Shown one piece after another: positions 9,475-58,536 of a DNA stretch of 64,000 nucleotides. The DNA lies in the NCBI GenBank assembly GCA_930633495.1, contig CAKNFJ010000002.1:186001-250000 (forward strand), given 5' to 3'. Source of the stretch: Hyphomicrobiales bacterium (GTDB taxonomy: Bacteria > Pseudomonadota > Alphaproteobacteria > Rhizobiales > Beijerinckiaceae). How positions within the stretch are numbered: position 1 is the first letter of the stretch; each line of letters starts with the position of its first letter. The notes beneath the pieces are model-generated. The model searched no databases and had not been told where the DNA came from. It saw only the letters and a program-made list of their open reading frames with translations. A program made the translations under genes and the position numbers.

Positions 9475-10674
9475 ATGATGTCCGAAGCCACCCCGTTCGA
9501 TCTCAGCCGCCTCGAATTCCGCCTTGAGGCTGAGAACGGGCTCTCGACCCTGTCGGTCGCAGCTAAGGGCAGCGCAAAAAGCCACGCTCCCGTGATCCTT
9601 CGCGCGACGGGCAATCAAATCAACAGCAGCTTGAACCTTCCGCTTTATGGGGTTCTCGATCGCCCCTATACCGACTGGAGAGGCGTGGCGGTTCAGCCCG
9701 TTCCCGTCCCCGTCCCTCCTCAGCTTCGAAGCGATGCTTCGTCGCTCTTCGTCGAGCTGTACGGTCGAGCGGCCGGCACCGGCGAGATCAACGGTTTTCT
9801 CGAAGCCATTCGGAATGCCGCGACTTCATCCCCCATCGTCCGGAGCTGGGGTGAAGGCGTGATCGATTTCGATGCGCTTCATGCTCTGCCCTACGACAAC
9901 CGAGGCAGCGATCTGATGCCGCTGGAGCACTACAACTGGCTGGCCGAACCCACCGTCGGGGCCCAGGCCGTCAAGCGCTTCGTCCTCACCCATCCCATCC
10001 TCGCTGGCATCGCGATGAACGGTTCGGAATTGTTCGAGGTCGCCGATGGTCATGTCACCCCCGAGGCGGCATACGAGGCGATTCTCTCTTCGATCGAGAC
10101 CGTCGGCTTCACCGGTGAGGGCGGAGGCTGGAAGCGGAGGGTTGGGCCGATTTCGCGCGATATTCTAGCTCGTCTGGCCGATCTGCCGCAGACTTGCGCG
10201 ACTTTCGACGAAGAGGACCTCTTTTTCACAACCGACTGGCTTTCTCTCGCCCGCCGGCTCCTGCCGAGTTCCCTGCCTAGCTCGAAGGTCGGCCTGATCA
10301 ATCTCGCCGAGGCCGGCCGCTGCGTAGAGGGGTTCACCGAGAAGCTATCGGTTCGCGGGGCTCTTGAGGAAGGCGATGGCTTCGGGTTCCAGTTCAGCAA
10401 TGCCGAGATCCAGCAGATTTTCCGCAACGTCGATTTCGACAAGGCACTCGGGCTGATCACGACGCTGGACATGGGCGGCGCCCCCTTCTTGGGAGCGTAT
10501 GGCGCATTGTTGGAGGAGCGTTGGGATCTGGTGCGGGAACCGACCACTGATGCCGACGGCTTTGCATTCTCTGCGCTCCGCGAGGCCCTGCTCCGCGACG
10601 GATTCGTCTCTGTCTCCGAGAAGGCCAAGGAAGCCGTTCTCGAATTCGAGGGCCTGTCTTCGCCGCGACCGTAA
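9475..10674 (+). CDS. Hypothetical protein, 399 aa
   Basis: Unrecognised protein that appears cytoplasmic, with no signal peptide or membrane segment. An AAGGA lies upstream of two adjacent ATG codons (9475 and 9478); spacing favours the second slightly. The sequence is acidic and mixed alpha/beta, with a Pro-Val-rich linker near residues 74-82. The next gene follows after 63 bases. It shares no visible motif with the PcfJ-like proteins elsewhere in the window. Coding is supported by clean codon structure and flanking signals only. Confidence 0.75.
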   Translation: MMSEATPFDLSRLEFRLEAENGLSTLSVAAKGSAKSHAPVILRATGNQINSSLNLPLYGVLDRPYTDWRGVAVQPVPVPVPPQLRSDASSLFVELYGRAAGTGEINGFLEAIRNAATSSPIVRSWGEGVIDFDALHALPYDNRGSDLMPLEHYNWLAEPTVGAQAVKRFVLTHPILAGIAMNGSELFEVADGHVTPEAAYEAILSSIETVGFTGEGGGWKRRVGPISRDILARLADLPQTCATFDEEDLFFTTDWLSLARRLLPSSLPSSKVGLINLAEAGRCVEGFTEKLSVRGALEEGDGFGFQFSNAEIQQIFRNVDFDKALGLITTLDMGGAPFLGAYGALLEERWDLVREPTTDADGFAFSALREALLRDGFVSVSEKAKEAVLEFEGLSSPRP

Positions 10675-27059: not shown

Positions 27060-29567
<2,508 letters not shown>

Positions 29568-29670: not shown

Positions 29671-31482
29671 ATGCTCGTCAATCATCAGGAAAACCGACTG
29701 GCGGTCACGGACGGAGCTCTCGCTGAGATAGGCGTTTCCGCTGGTATCGTTGAGGGCGATGGTCGGATCGGCTTTTGGGTCGTCTATCCGGTCACTGAAG
29801 GGAAGTTTCGCTTCCTCATGGCCGCCGCGAACGACGACGGTATCATCGATATCCTGCAGTCCGATGCCCCTCCTCATCCCCATGACTTCGCGTTGGCGAC
29901 GCTCGCGGCCATGCCGACCAGCCGCGTGTCGGCCGACGACGAGATCTACCAGCTCCGCGCGCTCGGGGTTCTTCCAGACCGAATGCGGCCGTCTGGTGAT
30001 GTTAGCGTCGGGATCGGCATCGCGCTCTGCAAGCGCTTCGGCGGAAGTGTAGTCGAGCAGGAGGAGCGTTTCGAGGTCATCCGCCGCGTGGCAACCTGGC
30101 TCGATCAGCAAGGTCTCTCTCGGCTACGCCAGCTTGTCGGCGATGGACGGATCGCTCTCTGCGAGACAGCAATTGCTTTGGACGGCGGGTGGCAGGACAG
30201 TGGCCGCTTCGGGCTCAGAGCCCTTCGCTGGCCATCAGAATCGGTCTCTGATGTCCGCGCCGCTTTGGATGCCTTCCCAGGCCTTGCGTCGCTTATCTTC
30301 TGGTCCCCGGCCGTATCTGGGGCACCGAAAGCGGTCGCGATGGAGATGCTTGCGACATTCGATATCCCTCCGGCGAAACGCCAAGGCCTCCTGAGGCGGC
30401 TGGCGGGGGTTGAACTCGCTCCAATCGGCGTGAGCGCCTTGAACGCTGCAGTCGGGTTCCCTTTGGATTGGATACCTACGAGGCATGACGAACAGGGCTG
30501 GCGGCGTTTCTCCGGCGCGCTCTCGCTGTTCGTTCATCTCCGAGATGCCTTCGAGACCGCACCAATGGTCTCGGCCGGCGGCTTCGGAGGACGATGGAGC
30601 GAGCTCGATGAGCGGATCCATCGGATGACGGGACGCCGTCTCGACGATCTTTGCGTCCTTCCAGGCGCAGCGATGGCAGCGGAGCTCGTCGATTTCGTTC
30701 GCGGGCAAGCCTATGACGTCGCGTTCGATTTTTTCGAGACCGTTCTTTTGCCAATGATGGCTCGCGACGGTCATGGAGAAGCTCGGGCTTCGTTCCCGAC
30801 CTTCCGAAACGCGATCGGAAAATTCCTGTTTGGCGAGCGATCGTCGGTCGACGTCATCGAGACGGCAAAGCGCTGGCACGATAGGGGCGTTTTGATTCCC
30901 ACCAGACTCAACACGGCGCGCTCCTGGGAAGCGTGGCTGCCGGAATTCACGCTCTATGACCGCGTCTCAATCAGGCAATTAACCACCGGACGTGATCTCG
31001 TCGACGAGGGCAGGAATGGTCCTGACGAGAACGGCGTTCAAGGCTTAGCCCACTGTGTCGGTAGTTATGCCTCCCGCGCGTCCCATGGTGACTGCGCAAT
31101 CCTCTCGCTCCGGACGGTTGGCGGATCGAGGCTTTCAACTGCTGAGGTTCGCTGGAAGGAAGAGCAATTTGAGGTTCAGCAGCACTATGGAAAGGCGAAC
31201 ACTCCGCCGCCTCCTGAATGCGTGAGTGCCCTCAAGCGCTATCTCAGTTGCTTCCCCGAGGGCATTCTCTCCGTAGATCGACAGGCGCTGGCGCGCGTCA
31301 AGGCGAGCCGGAAGGAAGACGTCGCTGCAATCTGCGGCTACGACTGGACCGCCGAAGGTGCAATCGAAGGGATCCTCGATCTGTGGAGACCGTATCTCTC
31401 ACGGGACCGCGCGCATATCACGCTCGATGACCTCGCGGACCGGTTTTGCCTTTCACCCCCGCCGGGCATGATGATGCGGTAG
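29671..31482 (+). CDS. PcfJ-like protein 2
   Basis: A 603-residue protein related to the one at 23672-25855 in its C-terminal region: Ala-His-Cys-Val-x-x-Tyr-Ala near residue 461, then Ser-Leu-Arg, a Ser-Thr-x-Glu-Val strand, Val-Gln-Gln and Asn-Thr-Pro-Pro. The N-terminal 440 residues are unassigned. No clear ribosome-binding site precedes the ATG, so the true start may be further in. It lies 103 bases after gyrB and 28 bases before the next gene. Two divergent PcfJ-like proteins on either side of gyrB is an unusual arrangement. Confidence 0.7.
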   Translation: MLVNHQENRLAVTDGALAEIGVSAGIVEGDGRIGFWVVYPVTEGKFRFLMAAANDDGIIDILQSDAPPHPHDFALATLAAMPTSRVSADDEIYQLRALGVLPDRMRPSGDVSVGIGIALCKRFGGSVVEQEERFEVIRRVATWLDQQGLSRLRQLVGDGRIALCETAIALDGGWQDSGRFGLRALRWPSESVSDVRAALDAFPGLASLIFWSPAVSGAPKAVAMEMLATFDIPPAKRQGLLRRLAGVELAPIGVSALNAAVGFPLDWIPTRHDEQGWRRFSGALSLFVHLRDAFETAPMVSAGGFGGRWSELDERIHRMTGRRLDDLCVLPGAAMAAELVDFVRGQAYDVAFDFFETVLLPMMARDGHGEARASFPTFRNAIGKFLFGERSSVDVIETAKRWHDRGVLIPTRLNTARSWEAWLPEFTLYDRVSIRQLTTGRDLVDEGRNGPDENGVQGLAHCVGSYASRASHGDCAILSLRTVGGSRLSTAEVRWKEEQFEVQQHYGKANTPPPPECVSALKRYLSCFPEGILSVDRQALARVKASRKEDVAAICGYDWTAEGAIEGILDLWRPYLSRDRAHITLDDLADRFCLSPPPGMMMR

Positions 31483-31510: not shown

Positions 31511-32305
31511 ATGTACAAGCTGACCCTTTCCAGCCGCGGCAACCCCGATTTCGGGCAGGACTCCACCCGGAGCTTGCCGGGTGTGGCCGATCTCACGATC
31601 GAGGTGGTCGACTTCGCTGAAGCCTCGCAGGAATGCAGGAGCTTCATCGAGCGGAATGGTCTGGGCGGAGGCAACTGGTCCGGCGGCTCGATCGTTGACG
31701 CTGAGGGCAAACTAGTCGGCCAGGTCAGCTACAATGGGAAGGTTTGGAAGGCGGGCGAGGATTTCAAGCTCGGAGCAACGCCGATCTTCAACCCCCATCC
31801 CGAAAAGTCCGAGCCGGCAGACAAGTTCGCATACGAGATCGCTCGGATCGAGGTTCCCGGGCTCGGCACGCTTGAGGCCCAGGGCTGCTTCCGCGCCGCG
31901 GTGATCAAGTCGATGCCGGGGAGCTTCAAGATCGACGGCCAGGACGTCGAATTCTATGTCAACGCGTCCTATAAGCCCAAAGGCAAGATCGCCTTCCATG
32001 GTCGCTCTTTGAGCGTCCTACCCGGCGGAGATCTACGGCAAAGCCAGCAAGCGCCGCAGGAGTTCTTCCTCGCCATCAAGGCTGCTCTCACCAAGTGGGC
32101 TGCCACGCCCGAGGCGCAGAAGCTCGTTATCCGAAACGACATCAAGGATCAGAACCGCTCCATCGGGTGGCACGATCACGCTATCGGTATCGCAAAGAAG
32201 CAGATCGCGGAGCACGAGGCCAACCAGGCAGCGATGCGAGAGCGCATCGCTGCCTATGAGCAGGAGCTTGAGCGGTTCGAGCGCGGCAGTTCGCCGAAAT
32301 TGTAG
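31511..32305 (+). CDS. Hypothetical protein, 264 aa, C-terminal coiled coil
   Basis: Unrecognised protein with GAGAGG before its ATG. Residues 1-190 are mixed alpha/beta, rich in Gly and Phe; residues 215-255 form a charged helix likely to be a coiled coil. No signal peptide. It is the last gene before the 1.1-kb non-coding repeat region. Probably co-transcribed with PcfJ-like gene 2. Confidence 0.68.
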   Translation: MYKLTLSSRGNPDFGQDSTRSLPGVADLTIEVVDFAEASQECRSFIERNGLGGGNWSGGSIVDAEGKLVGQVSYNGKVWKAGEDFKLGATPIFNPHPEKSEPADKFAYEIARIEVPGLGTLEAQGCFRAAVIKSMPGSFKIDGQDVEFYVNASYKPKGKIAFHGRSLSVLPGGDLRQSQQAPQEFFLAIKAALTKWAATPEAQKLVIRNDIKDQNRSIGWHDHAIGIAKKQIAEHEANQAAMRERIAAYEQELERFERGSSPKL

Positions 32306-32547
32306 CCCAGGCCATATTCTGCCTTCATGCGAGATTTGCCGCTCGCAAGAGGTAGGCCGCTAACCCTGGCAGCACGATGACGACCTCTATGGCGACAAAC
32401 AACGGTCGATATCCTGGCCACGTTGTGGAAATCGTCCGTGCCATCTCGCGGTACATCCACAACAGGATCTGTGCGAACTTCAAATCCAACGTCTAATCCT
32501 TCCTGCGTTTCCCACTCCGTAGAGTCTTAGTTCGAGGGGATATGGGT

Positions 32548-33244
32548 GTTATAGTGAACACCGTGACGCCATCCTCTCTCAAACCCGTATGCGGATTATA
32601 GGGGACAGCCCACGGCAACGAATGCGGCCCGTGTGCTTTGCTCAGATCTTCATTAGGCTCCTCCCCTCATTGATCTGCGTGATTGTCCTTGAGCGCCGTC
32701 TGTGGAGTATAGTGTACGGGCCTCGCAGCACCGCGGAGCACGGATGTCATGTCGACGTATGCCGATTCCATCTACGCCGTAGCTGGTGCCTTGCTTCTCC
32801 CGCACACCGGACTGGCTGAGATAGTGTACGCCTGAGGGACGACGGCTCATTCGTCTCCCCTGTGGTCTTCTTCGTTATGTTCTGGTGGCAAGTTCATTCC
32901 TCCTCACGCGGCGTAGAGCCGCGACTTGGGAACGATCTCACGGGAGAATATGAACGTTATAGTAGACGCCTGCTGGAGAGGCCCAAGCGTCTGGGCCCAC
33001 CGCTTGGGCCGAATGATTTCTCGTACCAAACCGCATCTCCTCACCCGGCGCAGTGCCGCTATCGGCGAACGATGCCGTTGGCGAGTATGTACTTTACAGA
33101 CGATACCTGGATGGATCTGATCCGCGGTCTCGGTCCATTTGTGGCTTTGGGTGCCGCTTTTTCCCACGGTCCTCACTCCTGAAGCGGGTAATGCCGCGTT
33201 CAGTGGCCATCTCATGCCGACGACTGCGAGTTATAGTATACAGC
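32548..33244 (+). repeat. Degenerate tandem repeats with TATAGT-NN-AC boxes
   Basis: A box reading TATAGT, two bases, then AC and usually (A/G)CC, occurs on one strand at 32550, 32597 (TATAGG), 32708, 32820 (GATAGT), 32958 and 33232; a decayed copy is at 33086-33099. Around the last three boxes the whole unit of about 130-145 bp is alignable: TCCTCAC at 32901, 33038 and 33170, then a GC-rich GGCGnAGnGCCG-like stretch. At 32936 and 33210 TCTCA stands exactly 17 bases before TATAGT, promoter-like spacing. Earlier units are more diverged. The array could be tandem promoters, small-RNA genes or protein-binding iterons. Confidence 0.65.
32980..33010 (+). other. Perfect 10-bp hairpin inside repeat unit
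   Basis: GGCCCAAGCG, 11 bases, then the exact reverse complement. It begins 17 bases after the TATAGT box at 32958, so it would lie near the 5' end of any transcript started there. Not repeated in the neighbouring units. Confidence 0.5.
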
Positions 33245-33319
33245 CGGCAAGGTGCGCCCATCCACCGATTCATGAATTGCGTCCTCATTCCTTGATGGAC
33301 CGCACGCCGCACTCGCCGT

Positions 33320-33327
33320 AATCCTTG
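33320..33327. promoter_or_regulatory. AATCCTTG motif upstream of 33388 gene
   Basis: Exact copy of the recurrent octamer, 60 bases before the GTG start. ATTCCTTG also occurs at 33287-33294. Confidence 0.45.
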
Positions 33328-33387
33328 TAGGTCCCTTCCCTAGCGCGGAATCGAATATCGACCGCCGGGCACCACAGGATCAGGCTC

Positions 33388-33738
33388 GTGACCACTCAGA
33401 CTGCCCCCACCGTCCGCCTCTTCATGAAGGAGCGCGAGATCATCCCGACCGAGGTGAACACGTTCTTCAATCGCCACCTCCGTCGCACCCTCGACAAGAT
33501 CAAGGCCCAGCAGATCAAGGCCTTTGGCCACCTTGTTCACCCGGAGAGTGGCGAGCGCCCGCAGATCTGGCTCGTCGTCAAGGACGTCCTCAAGGCTCAG
33601 GTCGAGGTTCGCCTGGTCACCGACTCCGAACCGCTCCGCGCGTGGCTGAAGGAGAAGGGCGCGCCGATCGGCGAGCTGATCCAGAAGGAAGGCGTCGACG
33701 CCCCCGTCATCCACGAGAATCAGCCCGACGCGGCCTGA
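33388..33738 (+). CDS. Hypothetical protein, 116 aa
   Basis: Small charged protein starting at GTG. A basic helical stretch (residues 15-45) is followed by strands and a helical C-terminus. No family recognised. It lies between the repeat region and the bactofilin gene, and has AATCCTTG upstream. A DNA-binding role is conceivable from its basic N-terminus and the adjacent repeats but is not supported by a motif. Confidence 0.65.
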   Translation: MTTQTAPTVRLFMKEREIIPTEVNTFFNRHLRRTLDKIKAQQIKAFGHLVHPESGERPQIWLVVKDVLKAQVEVRLVTDSEPLRAWLKEKGAPIGELIQKEGVDAPVIHENQPDAA

Positions 33739-33813
33739 ATTAACGCCGCATTCGTTGACCCATTCAAGGATCTCTCAATAGGGTTCTTTGAGTAAGGGAA
33801 GGATCGAATCGAG

Positions 33814-34551
33814 ATGCTTGCTCAATCCTTGGATACAGATGCCCGCGACGTCATCAGCCAGCCTGGGACCGTTCGCCTGGATCGCCCCTTCGAAGGAACG
33901 ATCAAGTGCCATCGCCTCATCCTCGAGGCTGGGGCTGCCGTGTCCGCGGATGTGCAGGTCAATCTCCTCGACATGCTCCCCGGCGCGCAGCTGACCGGTC
34001 CGGTTCGGGCTCGTGAGGTGCGCCTTCACCGTGAGACGGTGCTGCGCGGCGAGGTGCGCTCCGAGAAGATCACCACCTATGGCCAGATCATCGGCCTCTG
34101 TATCGCCGGCGAACTCCGCGGCGCGCGCTCGGCGACGTTCAGCGGTATCGTTGTCGCCGAATTCTTTGGCAGCGAGCCCGGATGCGAGATCAAGGGCGGC
34201 CTCCGCGCCGCGATCGGCCTCACCGCCCAGATCGAACGCCTCAATCGCGATCGCGAGAACATCCTTCGCTCGGGCCTGCTCGCCCCTGCCGATGTCTGGG
34301 CGACGCCAAGCGATCCGTTCGTCCTTTCGGATCAGGCGGCGCCGGCCGTTCAAACAGCGGTCCCGCCCGCTCCTCTGACGGTGGTTTCGCCTCAGGAGCA
34401 GCCTGCGCCTGTAGTGCAGAGCCCCACCGTGAAGCCATCGCTTCTCGACATTCGGCGCGTCTCGCTTGCGGCTGTCGCTTCCGCGGCGCCAGAGCAGCCC
34501 CGGCCCGAAACGGCAACGGTGCACGAGTTCAAGCCCCGCCTTTTCCCCTGA
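33814..34551 (+). CDS. Bactofilin-like polymer-forming protein
   Basis: A 245-residue protein. Residues 15-120 show the short periodic hydrophobic/Gly pattern (for example Gly-Thr-Ile, Gly-Ala, Gly-Pro-Val, Gly-Glu-Val, Gly-Glu-Leu) of a bactofilin right-handed beta-helix, which assembles into filaments without nucleotide. The rest is a Pro/Ala-rich disordered tail. Bactofilins organise cell-wall enzymes, morphology or, in some bacteria, chromosome segregation proteins. It sits 22 bases before gyrA, and AATCCTTG overlaps its first codons. The fit is by pattern, so moderate. Confidence 0.72.
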   Translation: MLAQSLDTDARDVISQPGTVRLDRPFEGTIKCHRLILEAGAAVSADVQVNLLDMLPGAQLTGPVRAREVRLHRETVLRGEVRSEKITTYGQIIGLCIAGELRGARSATFSGIVVAEFFGSEPGCEIKGGLRAAIGLTAQIERLNRDRENILRSGLLAPADVWATPSDPFVLSDQAAPAVQTAVPPAPLTVVSPQEQPAPVVQSPTVKPSLLDIRRVSLAAVASAAPEQPRPETATVHEFKPRLFP

Positions 34552-34573: not shown

Positions 34574-37423
34574 ATGACCGATCAGAGCCCGCCTCCGAGT
34601 GACGGTGAAGGCATCGAGGTCTCCGAGCTGTCGGAGGTCTTCAAGCAGGACTTCCTGAACTACGCGATGAGCGTGATCGTTTCGCGCGCTCTCCCAGACG
34701 TTCGCGACGGCCTGAAGCCCGTCCATCGCCGCATCATCTATGGCATGGATAACGGCGGCTATCACTCCGACAAGCCGTACATGAAGTCCGCGCGCATCAT
34801 CGGTGACGTGATGGGTAAATATCACCCGCACGGCAACCTGGCGATCTACGACGCGATGGTCCGCCTCGCCCAGGACTTCAAGATGCGTCACCCCCTGATC
34901 GATGGTCAGGGCAACTTCGGCTCGCCGGACGGGGATGCGCCGGCCGCCGACCGTTACACCGAAGCCCGGATGACCCGGCTCGCGCATTTCCTGATCGAGG
35001 ACATCGACAAGTCGACCGTCGACTTCAAGCCGAACTACGACGGTAAGGAGCGCGAGCCTGTCGTGCTCCCGTCCCGCTTCCCGAACATCCTCGTCAACGG
35101 CAGCGCCGGCATCGCCGTGGGCATGGCGACGAACATGCCGCCGCACAACCTCACCGAGGTGATCGATGCGTGCCTCATCCTCCTCGATCGCCCGGAAGCT
35201 TCGCTCGACGACATCATGGAGGTCCTGCCTGGGCCGGATTTCCCGACACAGGGCGTGATCCTCGGTCGCAGCGGCATCCGGAAGGCCTACGTCACAGGCC
35301 GTGGCTCGATCATGATGTCGGGCGTCGCCGAGATCGAGACCGGCAAGCGCGGCAAGAACCACATCATCATCACGGAGCTCCCGTATGATGTGAACAAGGC
35401 ACTTCTGATCGAGAAGATCGCGGACTATGTGACCACGGTCTCCAAGGCCAAGCCTGGCGACCAGAAGGTCGCTCAGTATGCGGTCTTCGGTGGCATCTCC
35501 GACATTCGCGACGAGTCGAACCAGGAATCCGTTCGCGTCGTCATCGACCTCAAGGCCGATGCGGAGCCGGCCGTCGTGCTGAACGCGCTCAAGCGCTTCA
35601 CCGACTTCCAGACGACGTTCCCCTACAACGCGACCTGCCTGAACTCGCGCGGCAAGCCCGCCGAGATGGGGCTGATGACGATCCTGACGGAGTTCCTCGC
35701 GTTCCGGCGTGACTGCGTCCTGAAGCGCTCGATCCACGAACTTGACGTCGCCCGCGGCCGACAGCTGCGGCAGATCGCGCTCTACCTCGCTCTCGACCGC
35801 GTCGACCAGGTGGTCGCCCTGATCCGCGCGTCGAACAACGACGAAGACGCCGCTGCCAAGCTGATGGCGCTCGAATTCACCATCGACGACGAGCTTTCCC
35901 AGCTGCTGCTGGAGGCTGATCCTGACGCTACGCTCTCGGGGACGATGCGCCTGACGCTCGCCCAGGCGAAGGCGATCCTGGATGTCAGCCTGAAGCAGCT
36001 CAGCCGCATGGGCCGGGACAAGATCTCGGACGAGCTCCGGACGCTCGCCGGCAAGATCCGCGAGCTGCTGCCGATCATCAACGACCGTGTCGTTCGCGAC
36101 AATGTCGTGAGGAACGAGTTCATCGAGATCCGCGAGAAGTTCGGCAACAAGCGGGTCACCCGTATCGAGAGCGTCGAAGCCGACGAGATCGATGACGAGT
36201 CCCTGATCGAGCGCCGCGACATCGTCGTGACCCTGACCAACTCCGGCTACGTCAAGCGCACCGAGCTCTCGGCCTATCGGGCCCAGCGCCGCGGCGGCAA
36301 GGGCAAGACCGGCATGGATACGAAGGACGATGATTTCGTCACGTCCACGATCGTCTGCACCACCCGCACGCCGCTCCTCGCCTTCACCGCGCGCGGGCAT
36401 GCTTACAAGATCAAGGCTCACCGCCTGCCGGAAGCGAATGCGAACGCCAAGGGGCGTCCGATCGTCAACGTCATCGAGCTGAAGGACGGTGACACGGTTC
36501 AGTCGCTCGTGGCGCTGCCCGAGGACCGCACAGCGCTCGAAGACATGAGCCTGCTCTTCGTCACCGACTTCGGCGACATCCGGCGCAACAAGGCGACCGA
36601 CTTCTCTGACCTCAACCGTCGGGGCAAGGGCGCCATGAAGCTGGAGAACGAGGACGGGTCGACGAGCGGCCGCCTGGTTACCGTGTTGCCGGCTGGCGAG
36701 AAGGACGACGTCCTCCTGGCGACTGCCCTTGGGCAGGCGATCCGCTTCCCGGTCTCCGACATGCGGGTCATGCAGAGCAATTCTTCGACCGGCGTCCGGG
36801 GCATCGCTTTCAAGGACAAGGCAGGCGCCGACCGCGTCGTCAGCGCGACCGTGCTGCCGCACAGCGAGGCCTCAGTCATCGAGCGCAATGCCTATCTCGC
36901 CAAGGGCACGATCTTCATGAAGGAAGGCGAGCTCAAGGACGAAGCCGGTCAGTCGACCGCACCGGCCTCCGTGACGGTCACGCCGGCCAATGACCCCGAG
37001 CGCCCCGATCGCGTGAAGGTCAGCCTCAATGTCGATCGGATGGTGGAGCTCGCCAACGAGGAACGCTTCCTGCTGACGGTTACCGCCAACGGCTTCGGCA
37101 AGCGTGTCTCCAGCCACGAGTACCGGGTCACCGGTCGCGGCGGCAGCGGCATCTCGGCCGGCGTATTCAACGATACGACCGGCGACCTGGTTGCCTGCTT
37201 CCCCGTCGACGAGGCCGATGGCCTCGTGCTCGTCACCGACGGCGGTCAGGCTATCCGGACCAATGTCAACGACGTCTCCGTCTACGGACGCGATACCCGC
37301 GGCATGCGCGTCTTCTCGCTCCCTGAAGGTCACAAGGTGACGGGCGTCGCCCGCATCTCCGATGACACGGGTGAGGAGGAAGCCGCTCCGCTCACGACCT
37401 CCAATCAGGGAACTGAACAGTGA
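34574..37423 (+). CDS. gyrA: DNA gyrase subunit A
   Basis: A 949-residue type IIA topoisomerase breakage-reunion subunit. Catalytic Tyr128 lies in Asp-Arg-Tyr-Thr-Glu. The C-terminal beta-pinwheel carries the GyrA box Gln-Arg-Arg-Gly-Gly-Lys-Gly near residue 571, which marks it as GyrA rather than ParC. In the quinolone-resistance region the usual His-Pro-His-Gly-Asp-Ser reads His-Pro-His-Gly-Asn88-Leu89; Leu89 aligns with E. coli Ser83. The last residues are an acidic tail. It overlaps the next gene by four bases (GTGA). Confidence 0.93.
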   Translation: MTDQSPPPSDGEGIEVSELSEVFKQDFLNYAMSVIVSRALPDVRDGLKPVHRRIIYGMDNGGYHSDKPYMKSARIIGDVMGKYHPHGNLAIYDAMVRLAQDFKMRHPLIDGQGNFGSPDGDAPAADRYTEARMTRLAHFLIEDIDKSTVDFKPNYDGKEREPVVLPSRFPNILVNGSAGIAVGMATNMPPHNLTEVIDACLILLDRPEASLDDIMEVLPGPDFPTQGVILGRSGIRKAYVTGRGSIMMSGVAEIETGKRGKNHIIITELPYDVNKALLIEKIADYVTTVSKAKPGDQKVAQYAVFGGISDIRDESNQESVRVVIDLKADAEPAVVLNALKRFTDFQTTFPYNATCLNSRGKPAEMGLMTILTEFLAFRRDCVLKRSIHELDVARGRQLRQIALYLALDRVDQVVALIRASNNDEDAAAKLMALEFTIDDELSQLLLEADPDATLSGTMRLTLAQAKAILDVSLKQLSRMGRDKISDELRTLAGKIRELLPIINDRVVRDNVVRNEFIEIREKFGNKRVTRIESVEADEIDDESLIERRDIVVTLTNSGYVKRTELSAYRAQRRGGKGKTGMDTKDDDFVTSTIVCTTRTPLLAFTARGHAYKIKAHRLPEANANAKGRPIVNVIELKDGDTVQSLVALPEDRTALEDMSLLFVTDFGDIRRNKATDFSDLNRRGKGAMKLENEDGSTSGRLVTVLPAGEKDDVLLATALGQAIRFPVSDMRVMQSNSSTGVRGIAFKDKAGADRVVSATVLPHSEASVIERNAYLAKGTIFMKEGELKDEAGQSTAPASVTVTPANDPERPDRVKVSLNVDRMVELANEERFLLTVTANGFGKRVSSHEYRVTGRGGSGISAGVFNDTTGDLVACFPVDEADGLVLVTDGGQAIRTNVNDVSVYGRDTRGMRVFSLPEGHKVTGVARISDDTGEEEAAPLTTSNQGTEQ

Positions 37424-54853: not shown

Positions 54854-55117
54854 TCAGGCTCCCACGACAAGCTGGAAGCCGCGGCCGTGCTCGCCGGCCT
54901 TGTTCATCTCAATGACGAACACGGTGGCTCCGTCCTGGCACTTCTCCAGCGCGAGGGGGCCGTAGGTCTCATCGGAGATTGCGCCGTCTGTGTCCGAGAT
55001 CACGAGCCTGTCGTCGTGGCGGACGATCTTCGTCGGGGTTCGCGAAGTCGGGGGGATGAAGACGATTGTCTCTCCGCTGTTGCCGAGAACGGCGACACCG
55101 GTGATCGATTCGGACAT
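54854..55117 (-). CDS. Small partner of the HEIGH protease, 87 aa
   Basis: A beta-rich acidic 87-residue protein, ATG at 55117 chosen by an upstream GGAG. Its stop is two bases before the HEIGH gene. No family recognised. It has the same length and relative position as the protein at 49523-49786, though sequence similarity between them is weak at best. Confidence 0.62.
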   Translation of the reverse strand: MSESITGVAVLGNSGETIVFIPPTSRTPTKIVRHDDRLVISDTDGAISDETYGPLALEKCQDGATVFVIEMNKAGEHGRGFQLVVGA

Positions 55118-56626: not shown

Positions 56627-57178
56627 ATGCGCTCATTCAGGGTCACCGATATTGCAGGCGTCGCCGCGGCATTGAAAGCCGCACGCGTCGAGCGTGGCCT
56701 GCGTCAGGACGACCTCGCTCTCGCGACGGGCATCAACCGAAAGACGCTGATGTCGATCGAAAGTGGTGTCAGCGGGGACGTGGGCGCATCCTATCTCATG
56801 CGGGTTCTACACCAGCTTGGCCTCGAACTTGTTCTGCAGCCGGCGCGGGCGATCAAGCCCGGCCTAGACGACCTCATGGCAGAGGCAGCTGCGCTTGGCT
56901 TGCGCCTTGAGCCGCGCACCGGCCCTGGGCGTTCGCTCGCCGATCTTGCTCGCGACGCCGGCGACCTTGGGTTCGAGCTCGTTGCCGACGGTGTCGACGA
57001 GGCACCGGATGCATCGGAGCTCGCCCTGGCTCGCCGTATTGCAGCCAAGCGGCGCGGCGCTCTTGCCCAGCTTCCTGATGATCCGGCGCCGGAGCCTAAG
57101 GAAGTCGAGCTCGATGTCGATGACGGCTATGGCTTCGGCGACGAGGGCGATGCCTACGCTCCGAGGGGAATGCGATGA
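56627..57178 (+). CDS. hipB: HipB-like antitoxin/repressor
   Basis: A 183-residue XRE-family protein. Residues 8-45 form the helix-turn-helix (Arg-Gln-Asp-Asp-Leu...Asn-Arg-Lys-Thr-Leu). E. coli HipB is 88 residues, so this has a C-terminal extension of about 100 residues, Ala/Asp/Glu-rich. ATG at 56627 is preferred because earlier in-frame ATGs (from 56603) lie within operator 4. It overlaps hipA by four bases (ATGA). It would bind the four upstream sites with HipA to repress the operon. Confidence 0.82.
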   Translation: MRSFRVTDIAGVAAALKAARVERGLRQDDLALATGINRKTLMSIESGVSGDVGASYLMRVLHQLGLELVLQPARAIKPGLDDLMAEAAALGLRLEPRTGPGRSLADLARDAGDLGFELVADGVDEAPDASELALARRIAAKRRGALAQLPDDPAPEPKEVELDVDDGYGFGDEGDAYAPRGMR

Positions 57179-58536
57179 AAGCCCGTGATGAAGTGATTGG
57201 TCGCCTCTCGGTCCGCATCAATGGGCAGCCATGCGCTGAGCTGCGAAGCCGGCGCGATGGTCAGCTGGAGCTTCAGTATCTTCCGGAGTGGGTTGCGCAG
57301 GTCGGCGTCGCTCGCCAGGCTTTGTCCGTCGCCTTGCCTGTTCGGGCCGAGCCTTTCGGTGACGACGTGGCGCACCCGTTTTTTGCTGGCCTCCTTCCTG
57401 AATCCACCAGCCATCGCCAGAGGCTCGGTGAGATCCTCCACATCAGCGGAGCCGACGACTTCTCTTTGCTTGGCGGGATTGGGCGGGACTGTGCGGGCTC
57501 GGTGTCCGTTGTCCCGGTTGACGCCCCTGTCATCCGCGAGGAGGATGTTCCGGAAGAGTTCGATCCCCTCGACGAAAAGCGCCTGGCTGAGCTGATCCGG
57601 GATCTGCCTGTTCGCCCACTCTTCATCGATGAAGACGGTGACAACCACCTGATCTCGTTGGCCGGGGTCAATGACAAGGCAGCGGTCATTGTCGTCGACG
57701 GCGTCATCGGCCTCCCCAAGAACGGCTATCCGTCGAGCCACATCCTGAAGACGGATATCTCGATCCTGAAGGACTCCATAAAGGTCGAGCACTTCGCAAT
57801 CCGTCTTGCCGGGGAGCTTGGAATGAAGGTTCCCCGATCGCGGATCATGACCGCGGAGGGGATCCCCTTCATGCTGGTCTCACGCTACGACCGGGTCGTC
57901 ACCCAGACGGGCGATCGCAAGCGGCTGCGCCGTATCCACCAGGAAGATTTCTGCCAGGCTCTGTCGCTCATGCCGGCCGCCAAGTTCGAAGCCCGCGGCG
58001 GGCCTGGGTGGAAGGACGCCTTCCAACTGCTCGATCATGTCGACGATCGCGCCGGCGCGCGGCTGGAGCTCTTGAGCCGTGCGTTCTACAGCTACCTGGT
58101 CGCGAACAGCGATGGCCACGCCAAGAACCTATCCCTGCTCCACAGAGGCGGGAAGACGAGCCTGGCACCGCTCTACGACGTTTCCTGTCAACGCGCCTTC
58201 GTCGCCGATTACAAGCGGCTGTCGCCCTACCTCACGATGAGTGTCGGCGGCGAGCACGACCCAACCAAGCTCACGGGCGACCACTGGGATCGGTTCGCGG
58301 CCGAGTGCGGCTTCCAGCCTGCCGCGGTGCGCAAGCTTTTGTCTTCGATGGCGGCGCTGATGCCCGCGAAGGCGGCGGCCTTGCGTGAGACGATGAGGGG
58401 GACGGCAGCTGACTCGCCGCGCCTCGACATTGTCGTCGCCGATGTCACGGCGCGGTGTCAGGCAGTCCCGGCGATGCTGAAGCGTGAGTTCGATCCTGAG
58501 GCTGTCGCGGAGGTTGCCGCCTTCGGGATCAGATAG
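57175..58536 (+). CDS. hipA: HipA-like serine/threonine kinase toxin
   Basis: A 453-residue type II toxin. HipA of E. coli phosphorylates glutamyl-tRNA synthetase and induces persistence. The N-terminal subdomain (1-110), the regulatory loop serine in Ser-Leu-Ala-Gly, the Ser-Arg-Tyr-Asp-Arg strand, catalytic Asp313 in Asn-Ser-Asp-Gly-His-Ala-Lys-Asn and Asp335 in Leu-Tyr-Asp-Val are all present. It overlaps hipB by four bases and the convergent GNAT gene by eight. Full length and motifs suggest activity. Confidence 0.9.
   Translation: MKARDEVIGRLSVRINGQPCAELRSRRDGQLELQYLPEWVAQVGVARQALSVALPVRAEPFGDDVAHPFFAGLLPESTSHRQRLGEILHISGADDFSLLGGIGRDCAGSVSVVPVDAPVIREEDVPEEFDPLDEKRLAELIRDLPVRPLFIDEDGDNHLISLAGVNDKAAVIVVDGVIGLPKNGYPSSHILKTDISILKDSIKVEHFAIRLAGELGMKVPRSRIMTAEGIPFMLVSRYDRVVTQTGDRKRLRRIHQEDFCQALSLMPAAKFEARGGPGWKDAFQLLDHVDDRAGARLELLSRAFYSYLVANSDGHAKNLSLLHRGGKTSLAPLYDVSCQRAFVADYKRLSPYLTMSVGGEHDPTKLTGDHWDRFAAECGFQPAAVRKLLSSMAALMPAKAAALRETMRGTAADSPRLDIVVADVTARCQAVPAMLKREFDPEAVAEVAAFGIR

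Follow-up and report, generated by a model that had tools for sequence, protein, structure and literature searches.

A clustered box array among the gyrase genes of a Bosea megaplasmid and its possible origin by amplification of a promoter-leader module

Several described systems share features with the repeat array considered here, which lies on a Bosea megaplasmid. Ibs/Sib and Ldr/Rdl are tandem type I toxin-antitoxin loci. The array resembles them in its tiny hydrophobic ORF, its tandem units and the possible opposite-strand RNAs; it differs in that the intact ORF is beyond the reach of a box-driven antisense RNA and in that the organisms are distant. Tandem promoters before one gene also consist of repeated promoter-like elements in one orientation, but the related copies here include a leader, a ribosome site and a start codon and not the promoter alone. 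Symmetric -10 elements that fire both ways are described in PMC10268837, where bidirectional promoters are reported as especially frequent on Salmonella plasmids; for the present array this is no more than an analogy. The likeness is a -10-like reading on both strands at one site, a divergent gap and a plasmid location, whereas the present array repeats a longer shared box in as many as seven tandem copies, the related ones of which also have a leader. The anti-Shine-Dalgarno (anti-SD) sRNAs alpha-r14 / SmelA075 of Rhizobiales are, according to PMC10746234 and PMC3927594, defined by CCUCCUCCC in hairpin loops. They resemble the array in being multi-copy and in the UCCUC-rich plus strand. Unlike them, the array is without CCUCCUCCC, without a model match and without conserved RNA bodies, and most of its UCCUC motifs stand opposite ribosome sites of the other strand.

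An earlier note on this DNA had described the boxes and suggested tandem small-RNA genes, a promoter array, or an origin or centromere with iteron-like sites. We put at roughly one half the probability that the array arose by tandem amplification, since partly decayed, of a promoter-leader module for a putative minus-strand small membrane-protein gene. The locus looks like a real but modest curiosity, and not like a row of sRNA genes or a replication origin.

Replicon setting and box cluster

The window, by which we mean the whole stretch of 64,000 nucleotides that was analysed, corresponds to bases 186001-250000 of contig C2 (758,792 bases) in a genome of 5.94 Mb. Its replicon is a repC-bearing Bosea megaplasmid of 759 kb. 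The repC gene (C2:11877-12380) is the one RP-C match in the genome, and the array, at C2:218.5-219.3 kb, is 206 kb away from it. The position between topoisomerase genes beside a bactofilin gene was confirmed, the array lying in a gap (32306-33387) within a gyrB ... gyrA cluster (Table 1). The region had been described as 1.1 kb and non-coding; the gap indeed measures 1082 bp, but it may hold a 54-codon minus-strand ORF with a likely counterpart on a sister plasmid, pANAM02.

The 116-aa protein encoded to the right of the gap has no Pfam or PHROG match, and its AlphaFold model is alpha/beta and of low confidence (pLDDT 66). It was found in three of 67 Bosea genomes and in one of 397 genomes sampled from the order, namely its own. 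A search for it gave two plasmid records and no phage record, and no relative was confirmed in genome_contigs or viral_contigs, where records near the window's genome may be missing. The two plasmid records, both Bosea, are pANAM02 (NZ_AP022849.1, 692,187 bases) and pBSY19_1 (NZ_CP016463.1, 708,738 bases).

Between 32550 and 33241, TATAGTNNAC occurs four times exactly, twice with one mismatch and once with two, in a single orientation and at spacings of 47, 111, 112, 138, 130 and 144 bp. The null model was 5000 Markov shuffles of the plus strand of 32506-33340, with means of 0.005 exact boxes and 0.17 boxes with at most one mismatch. Four exact boxes were reached by none of the 5000 shuffles, nor were six with at most one mismatch, and seven with at most two mismatches were reached by 45. 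Over the whole window, matches with at most one mismatch number eight where 3.9 are expected, a count attained by 9 of 100 shuffles; in the genome, the 12 exact occurrences of the box do not exceed the 17 of its backwards control. These totals are ordinary, and it is the clustering that is unusual: four of the 12 exact boxes fall in the array, and C2 has no further one. The repeat array is real and statistically secure, and the claim of at least six same-strand boxes is borne out by the seven found, a cluster above shuffles. The TCTCA reported exactly 17 bp upstream of two boxes is indeed there, at 32958 and 33232, and in the pANAM02 unit as well; these are exactly the three cases of ATCTCA-N17-TATAGT in three Bosea genomes.

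Table 1. Window coordinates of the array, its putative leaders and the flanking genes (SD, ribosome site)
Feature	Position	Strand	Description
gyrB	27090-29567		
PcfJ-like	29671-31482		
264-aa protein	31511-32305		left flank of gap
54-codon ORF	32325-32489	minus	TTG start at 32489; one hydrophobic segment; left of all boxes
SD AGGAAGG (u1)	32498-32504	minus	8 nt before TTG at 32489, small 54-codon ORF
box u1	32550-32559	minus	plus TATAGTGAAC, minus GTTCACTATAAC; exact; -10-like on both strands
box u2	32597-32606	minus	plus TATAGGGGAC, minus GTCCCCTATAAT; 1 mismatch; no ribosome site of tested kind below
SD GGAGG (u3)	32660-32664	minus	ATG at 32653, 3-codon ORF
box u3	32708-32717	minus	TATAGTGTAC; exact
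box u4	32820-32829	minus	GATAGTGTAC; 1 mismatch; no ribosome site of tested kind below
module u5	32882-32982	minus	start codon, SD, GCGGC/GCCGC inverted repeat, TCTCA, box; homologous
SD AGGAG (u5)	32900-32904	minus	TTG at 32891, 14-codon ORF
box u5	32958-32967	minus	TATAGTAGAC; exact
module u6	33020-33112	minus	homologous to u5, u7
SD AGGAG (u6)	33037-33041	minus	TTG at 33029, 41-codon ORF
box u6	33088-33097	minus	degenerate, 2 mismatches
module u7	33158-33256	minus	homologous to u5, u6
SD AGGAG (u7)	33176-33180	minus	GTG at 33167, 87-codon ORF, codon usage not gene-like
box u7	33232-33241	minus	TATAGTATAC; exact; position orthologous to single unit of pANAM02
116-aa protein gene	33388-33738	plus	divergent neighbour right of gap, then bactofilin and gyrA
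bactofilin	33814-34551		
gyrA	34574-37423		

Homologous modules, strand and the small ORF

Clear homology is limited to u5, u6 and u7 (boxes 32958, 33088 and 33232) and covers about 100 nt of each period. Three units had been described as alignable over 130-145 bp; the last three are homologous, but not over the whole period. Pairwise local alignments of these three gave z values of 4.8-13.6 against shuffles, the pANAM02 unit joining them at 5.0-21.1, and all four align gap-free from TCTCA to the box. The local u5-u6 alignment extends about 40 nt right of the box. Units 1-4 (boxes 32550-32820) have little in common beyond the box. Their leaders showed no similarity to the u5-u7 leaders, and u2-u3 was the one other pair standing out among the 28 leader pairs tested (p 0.001). 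In unit alignments that include the box, u2-u7, u2-pANAM02 and u4-u5 reached z values of 3.6-4.1; scores between neighbouring units 1-4 were ignored because the segments overlap. Among the four sequences, no compensatory change is seen in the GCGGC-N5-GCCGC hairpin, and one sequence has breaks or gaps at three of the five pairs. A perfect 10-bp inverted repeat with an 11-nt loop lies right of box u5 (32980-33010) and is not listed for the other units; its fold is equalled at 1% of positions.

Similarity was then resolved by segment in the six pairs formed by the four related units (u5, u6, u7 and the pANAM02 unit). From the minus-strand start and SD to the hairpin, z was 2.3-6.7 in five pairs and -0.4 for u7-pANAM02; from the hairpin to the box it was 1.0-4.6 in all six, and over the box itself 4.3-6.0 for pairs without the degenerate u6, those with u6 being weak. 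Right of the box, z ranged from -1.0 to 2.6 at 14-44 nt and, at 44-90 nt, from -1.3 to 1.2 in five pairs, with 13.1 for the orthologous u7-pANAM02 pair. The first codons of the minus-strand ORF bodies were at chance level except for u5-u6 (z 4.4). The concentration of similarity left of the boxes suggests that the units share mainly a minus-strand leader and not plus-strand RNA genes. On the minus strand, five of seven units (u1, u3, u5, u6, u7) have a strong SD plus start codon 45-72 nt below the box, and on the plus strand none of seven does, the site type and distance window having been chosen after inspection of the sequence. The chance rate was 2-4% per box in shuffles, and over window positions it was 2.2% (minus) and 0.9% (plus). 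We counted u1 and u3 as separate cases because their leaders are unlike those of u5-u7. The plus-strand reading of the earlier note probably is wrong, and the minus strand appears to be favoured.

The ORF led by u1 is most likely an unannotated gene for a putative single-pass small membrane protein. Behind its single unit, pANAM02 carries on the minus strand a 62-codon ORF (L044:9970-10158) with AAGGAG 6 nt before a TTG, absent from the plasmid's annotation, which is likely the counterpart of the 54-codon ORF. Relative to the end of the 264-aa gene, the 54-codon ORF stops 19 bp short and the 62-codon ORF 4 bp inside. Each has one TM-like segment, with maximum 19-residue hydropathy of 2.43 and 2.03, respectively. 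When the two were compared from their starts, the first 25 residues beat 20000 of 20000 shuffles and the best prefix had p 0.00025, in a test devised after seeing the sequences and applied to six ORF pairs. Among the other anchored pairs, p was 0.03-0.05 for pANAM02 with u6 and u7 and 0.01-0.02 for u6-u7, and u1-u6 and u1-u7 were not significant (0.12-0.5). Free local alignment of the 54- and 62-codon ORFs was weak, being matched by 91 of 3000 shuffles, and their identity is 25%, compared with 83-94% for neighbour genes between the two plasmids. Codon usage does not mark the small ORFs as coding: they score 0.07 and -0.04 bits per codon, where genes score 0.31 and off-frame DNA -0.33. The 87-codon ORF behind u7, whose frame contains the 41-codon ORF, scores -0.17. 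A small-ORF profile recovered its two training rows and otherwise nothing better than E 0.04, with some match at E up to 1 in 28 of 67 genomes, and tblastn of the pANAM02 ORF found its own record alone below E 0.3.

Read on the minus strand, six of the eight boxes, pANAM02 included, are TATAAC, TATAAT or TATACT. The plus-strand sequence is TATAGT in five of the eight (four of seven in the array), and the other three in the array keep four of six consensus letters. Four of the five exact boxes, again counting pANAM02, end on the minus strand in C where -10 elements want T; the plus-strand TATAGT retains that T. No promoter-like site with a TTGACA-like -35 at 16-18 bp was found on either strand of 32300-33450 (0.9 expected), and ATCTCA stands 17 bp upstream of TATAGT on the plus strand in two of the seven array units. 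With no -35 on the minus strand and no usual one on the plus strand, there may be a dedicated activator, or a promoter that works in both directions.

In the promoter-leader reading, each module would comprise a promoter (the box) and then, on the minus strand, a roughly 60-nt leader containing a short inverted repeat, an SD and a start codon. The box would act as a -10 element, with transcription running leftwards and perhaps both ways. Of the copies, the one closest to where the 264-aa gene ends would lead the tiny membrane protein, and the one farthest from it would sit in the divergent gap common to the 116-aa, bactofilin and gyrA genes. Copies may have arisen by unequal recombination, and the upstream ones may be decaying remnants or extra promoters feeding the small gene. 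If this is correct, a bacterial plasmid is able to amplify a promoter in one piece with its 5' leader and start codon, module copy number varies between sister plasmids, and a small unannotated membrane-protein gene is added beside plasmid-borne gyrase genes.

Alternative explanations

The promoter array suggested earlier survives, most probably on the minus strand or on both strands and not on the plus strand alone, and the two-strand version is the likeliest of the alternatives, though itself unlikely. Each box would be a near-symmetric -10 firing left into membrane-protein leaders and right towards the 116-aa, bactofilin and gyrA genes, and short rightward RNAs would be antisense to the leader of the next module. 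Divergent start sites at a bidirectional promoter would lie about 18 bp apart. The -10-like appearance of the box on both strands, the single pANAM02 box in the divergent gap between small ORF and 116-aa gene, the plus-strand ATCTCA at 17 bp and the Salmonella plasmid precedent are all consistent with it. However, such symmetry belongs to every hexamer that has A at -11 and T at -7, so that the two-strand reading is weak evidence, and both the lack of a TTGACA-like -35 on either strand and the lack of conservation of RNA bodies right of the boxes argue against it. Tandem plus-strand sRNA genes with their own promoters and an anti-Shine-Dalgarno (UCCUC) seed, like the Rhizobiales anti-SD sRNAs, are improbable. 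They would fit the strand bias of TCCTC in the array (seven on plus, none on minus; reached by 3 of 3000 order-1 and 47 of 3000 order-2 shuffles), two terminator-like sites (0.7 expected), one of them canonical at 33141-33157, the ATCTCA-N17-TATAGT pair and the inverted repeat right of box u5. Yet four of the seven TCCTC (32659, 32898, 32901 and 33038) overlap minus-strand ribosome sites and another (33170) falls between a ribosome site and the start codon that follows it, the remaining two being elsewhere, so much of the bias is explained by ribosome sites on the opposite strand. It is mainly the segment-wise similarity that disfavours such genes, their putative bodies (44-90 nt right of the boxes) being unrelated between units except for the u7-pANAM02 pair. 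Only one of the eight predicted folds departs from the ordinary (the u1 stretch, z -2.15), and UCCUC is not consistently unpaired in them. Rfam gave no gathering-score match in the window and, at E up to 10 over 32300-33760, one match (E 2.1) outside the array; CCTCCTCCC is absent from both strands of the window. If the minus-strand reading is true, the case shows that repeated ribosome sites on one strand can look like a small-RNA array when their complement is read. Still more doubtful is a tandem array of whole translation-initiation cassettes, each made up of a two-way promoter, a leader, a ribosome site and a start codon. Every box would then drive a mini-mRNA to the left and, to the right, an RNA antisense to the cassette that comes next, so that sense and antisense leaders would overlap throughout the array, tuning the tiny membrane protein and the plasmid gyrase genes, with copy number differing between sister plasmids (seven boxes versus one).

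We see a small chance that the array is a relic without present function, its copies descending from an old promoter-leader by neutral tandem duplication. The count of seven boxes to the single one in pANAM02 and the strong decay of most copies would agree with this, but u1 and u3 keep the spacing from box to SD and start though their leaders have otherwise lost similarity to u5-u7. The chance is slighter that the array is of type I toxin-antitoxin kind, with the small membrane peptide as toxin and opposite-strand box RNAs silencing the next leader. A putative small hydrophobic peptide gene with a ribosome site is present on both plasmids as the 54- and 62-codon ORFs, though codon usage does not mark them as coding, and the single-pass ORF with SD and leader on a plasmid, the tandem modules and the -10-like sites on both strands all match such a system; rightward box RNAs, however, would miss the intact small ORF, which is left of all boxes in both plasmids, though another promoter might supply an antisense RNA. 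An origin, iteron or centromere site, the remaining suggestion of the earlier note, is unsupported and scarcely credible. Same-orientation repeated boxes near topoisomerase genes on a plasmid would suit it, but repC is distant, the box spacing is irregular (47-144 bp), no exact DnaA box occurs in or near the array (the window's one match is at 10222), GC skew has no clear reversal in the window, pANAM02 has one exact box at the corresponding place, and a Pfam scan of 30 window proteins showed no replication initiator and no partition protein.

Related plasmids and neighbouring features

The plasmid pANAM02 has the same flanking genes as the window and a gap of about 400 bp with one unit. Starting immediately left of the box and continuing to the 116-aa gene, its sequence shares 81% identity with u7 and the stretch behind u7. 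At its ORF end this unit matches u5 at 11 of 16 positions and u7 at 8 of 16, at its box end it matches u7 at 19 of 20 and u5 at 14 of 20, and the middle is about equal, as would be expected of recombining copies. The simplest history would be that modules exchanged sequence, with one plasmid losing copies or the other gaining them. A second box match in pANAM02, at 55005, is inside an annotated reading frame and was taken as chance. The other plasmid, pBSY19_1, keeps gyrB, the 116-aa gene, bactofilin and gyrA, with other genes filling the gap and no exact box in it.

Conservation of the unit in relatives is limited to one finding, the single unit of pANAM02, and the covariance model of the unit places it in two of 67 Bosea genomes, its own included. 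In that search, run with stricter filters and 60 candidates scored per genome, only the four training units appeared at E up to 0.1. Beyond these, hits in three genomes had E of at least 1.19; three of those four reappeared in a smaller search space, which lowers E. Searching with the array DNA found pANAM02 only among plasmids and nothing among phages, and a literature search of titles and abstract openings found no paper naming this locus.

Window 2568-37423 includes the megaplasmid's own gyrB and gyrA as well as genes for thymidylate synthase, RtcR/RtcB, a RecD2-like helicase and two PcfJ-like proteins; this set is partly phage-like and sits on a repC-bearing replicon. PHROG matches were limited to three of ten window proteins scanned. 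A phage-like replicon was considered and dropped, as repC is present and icmT and ParM/StbA are annotated on pBSY19_1. On that plasmid, which is typed non-mobilizable, the ParM/StbA-family gene adjoins an icmT/traK-family gene (NZ_CP016463.1, 115349-116629, L078). The gyrA product is 97.9% identical in pANAM02 and 71.5% in pBSY19_1, and identity stays below 60% in the remaining 172 plasmid records found. Relatives of the 264-aa protein are encoded on two Microvirga megaplasmids and elsewhere on pBSY19_1; for its N-terminal part, a 628-kb Rossellomorea record and also a Nitrogeniibacter plasmid have relatives. Further along the window, 57175-58536 encodes a HipA-like protein (PF07804 and PF13657). 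On contig C1, five matches of one 14-mer at 366710-369674 are spaced by exactly 741 bp, a regularity that probably reflects a long tandem repeat, perhaps a coding one.
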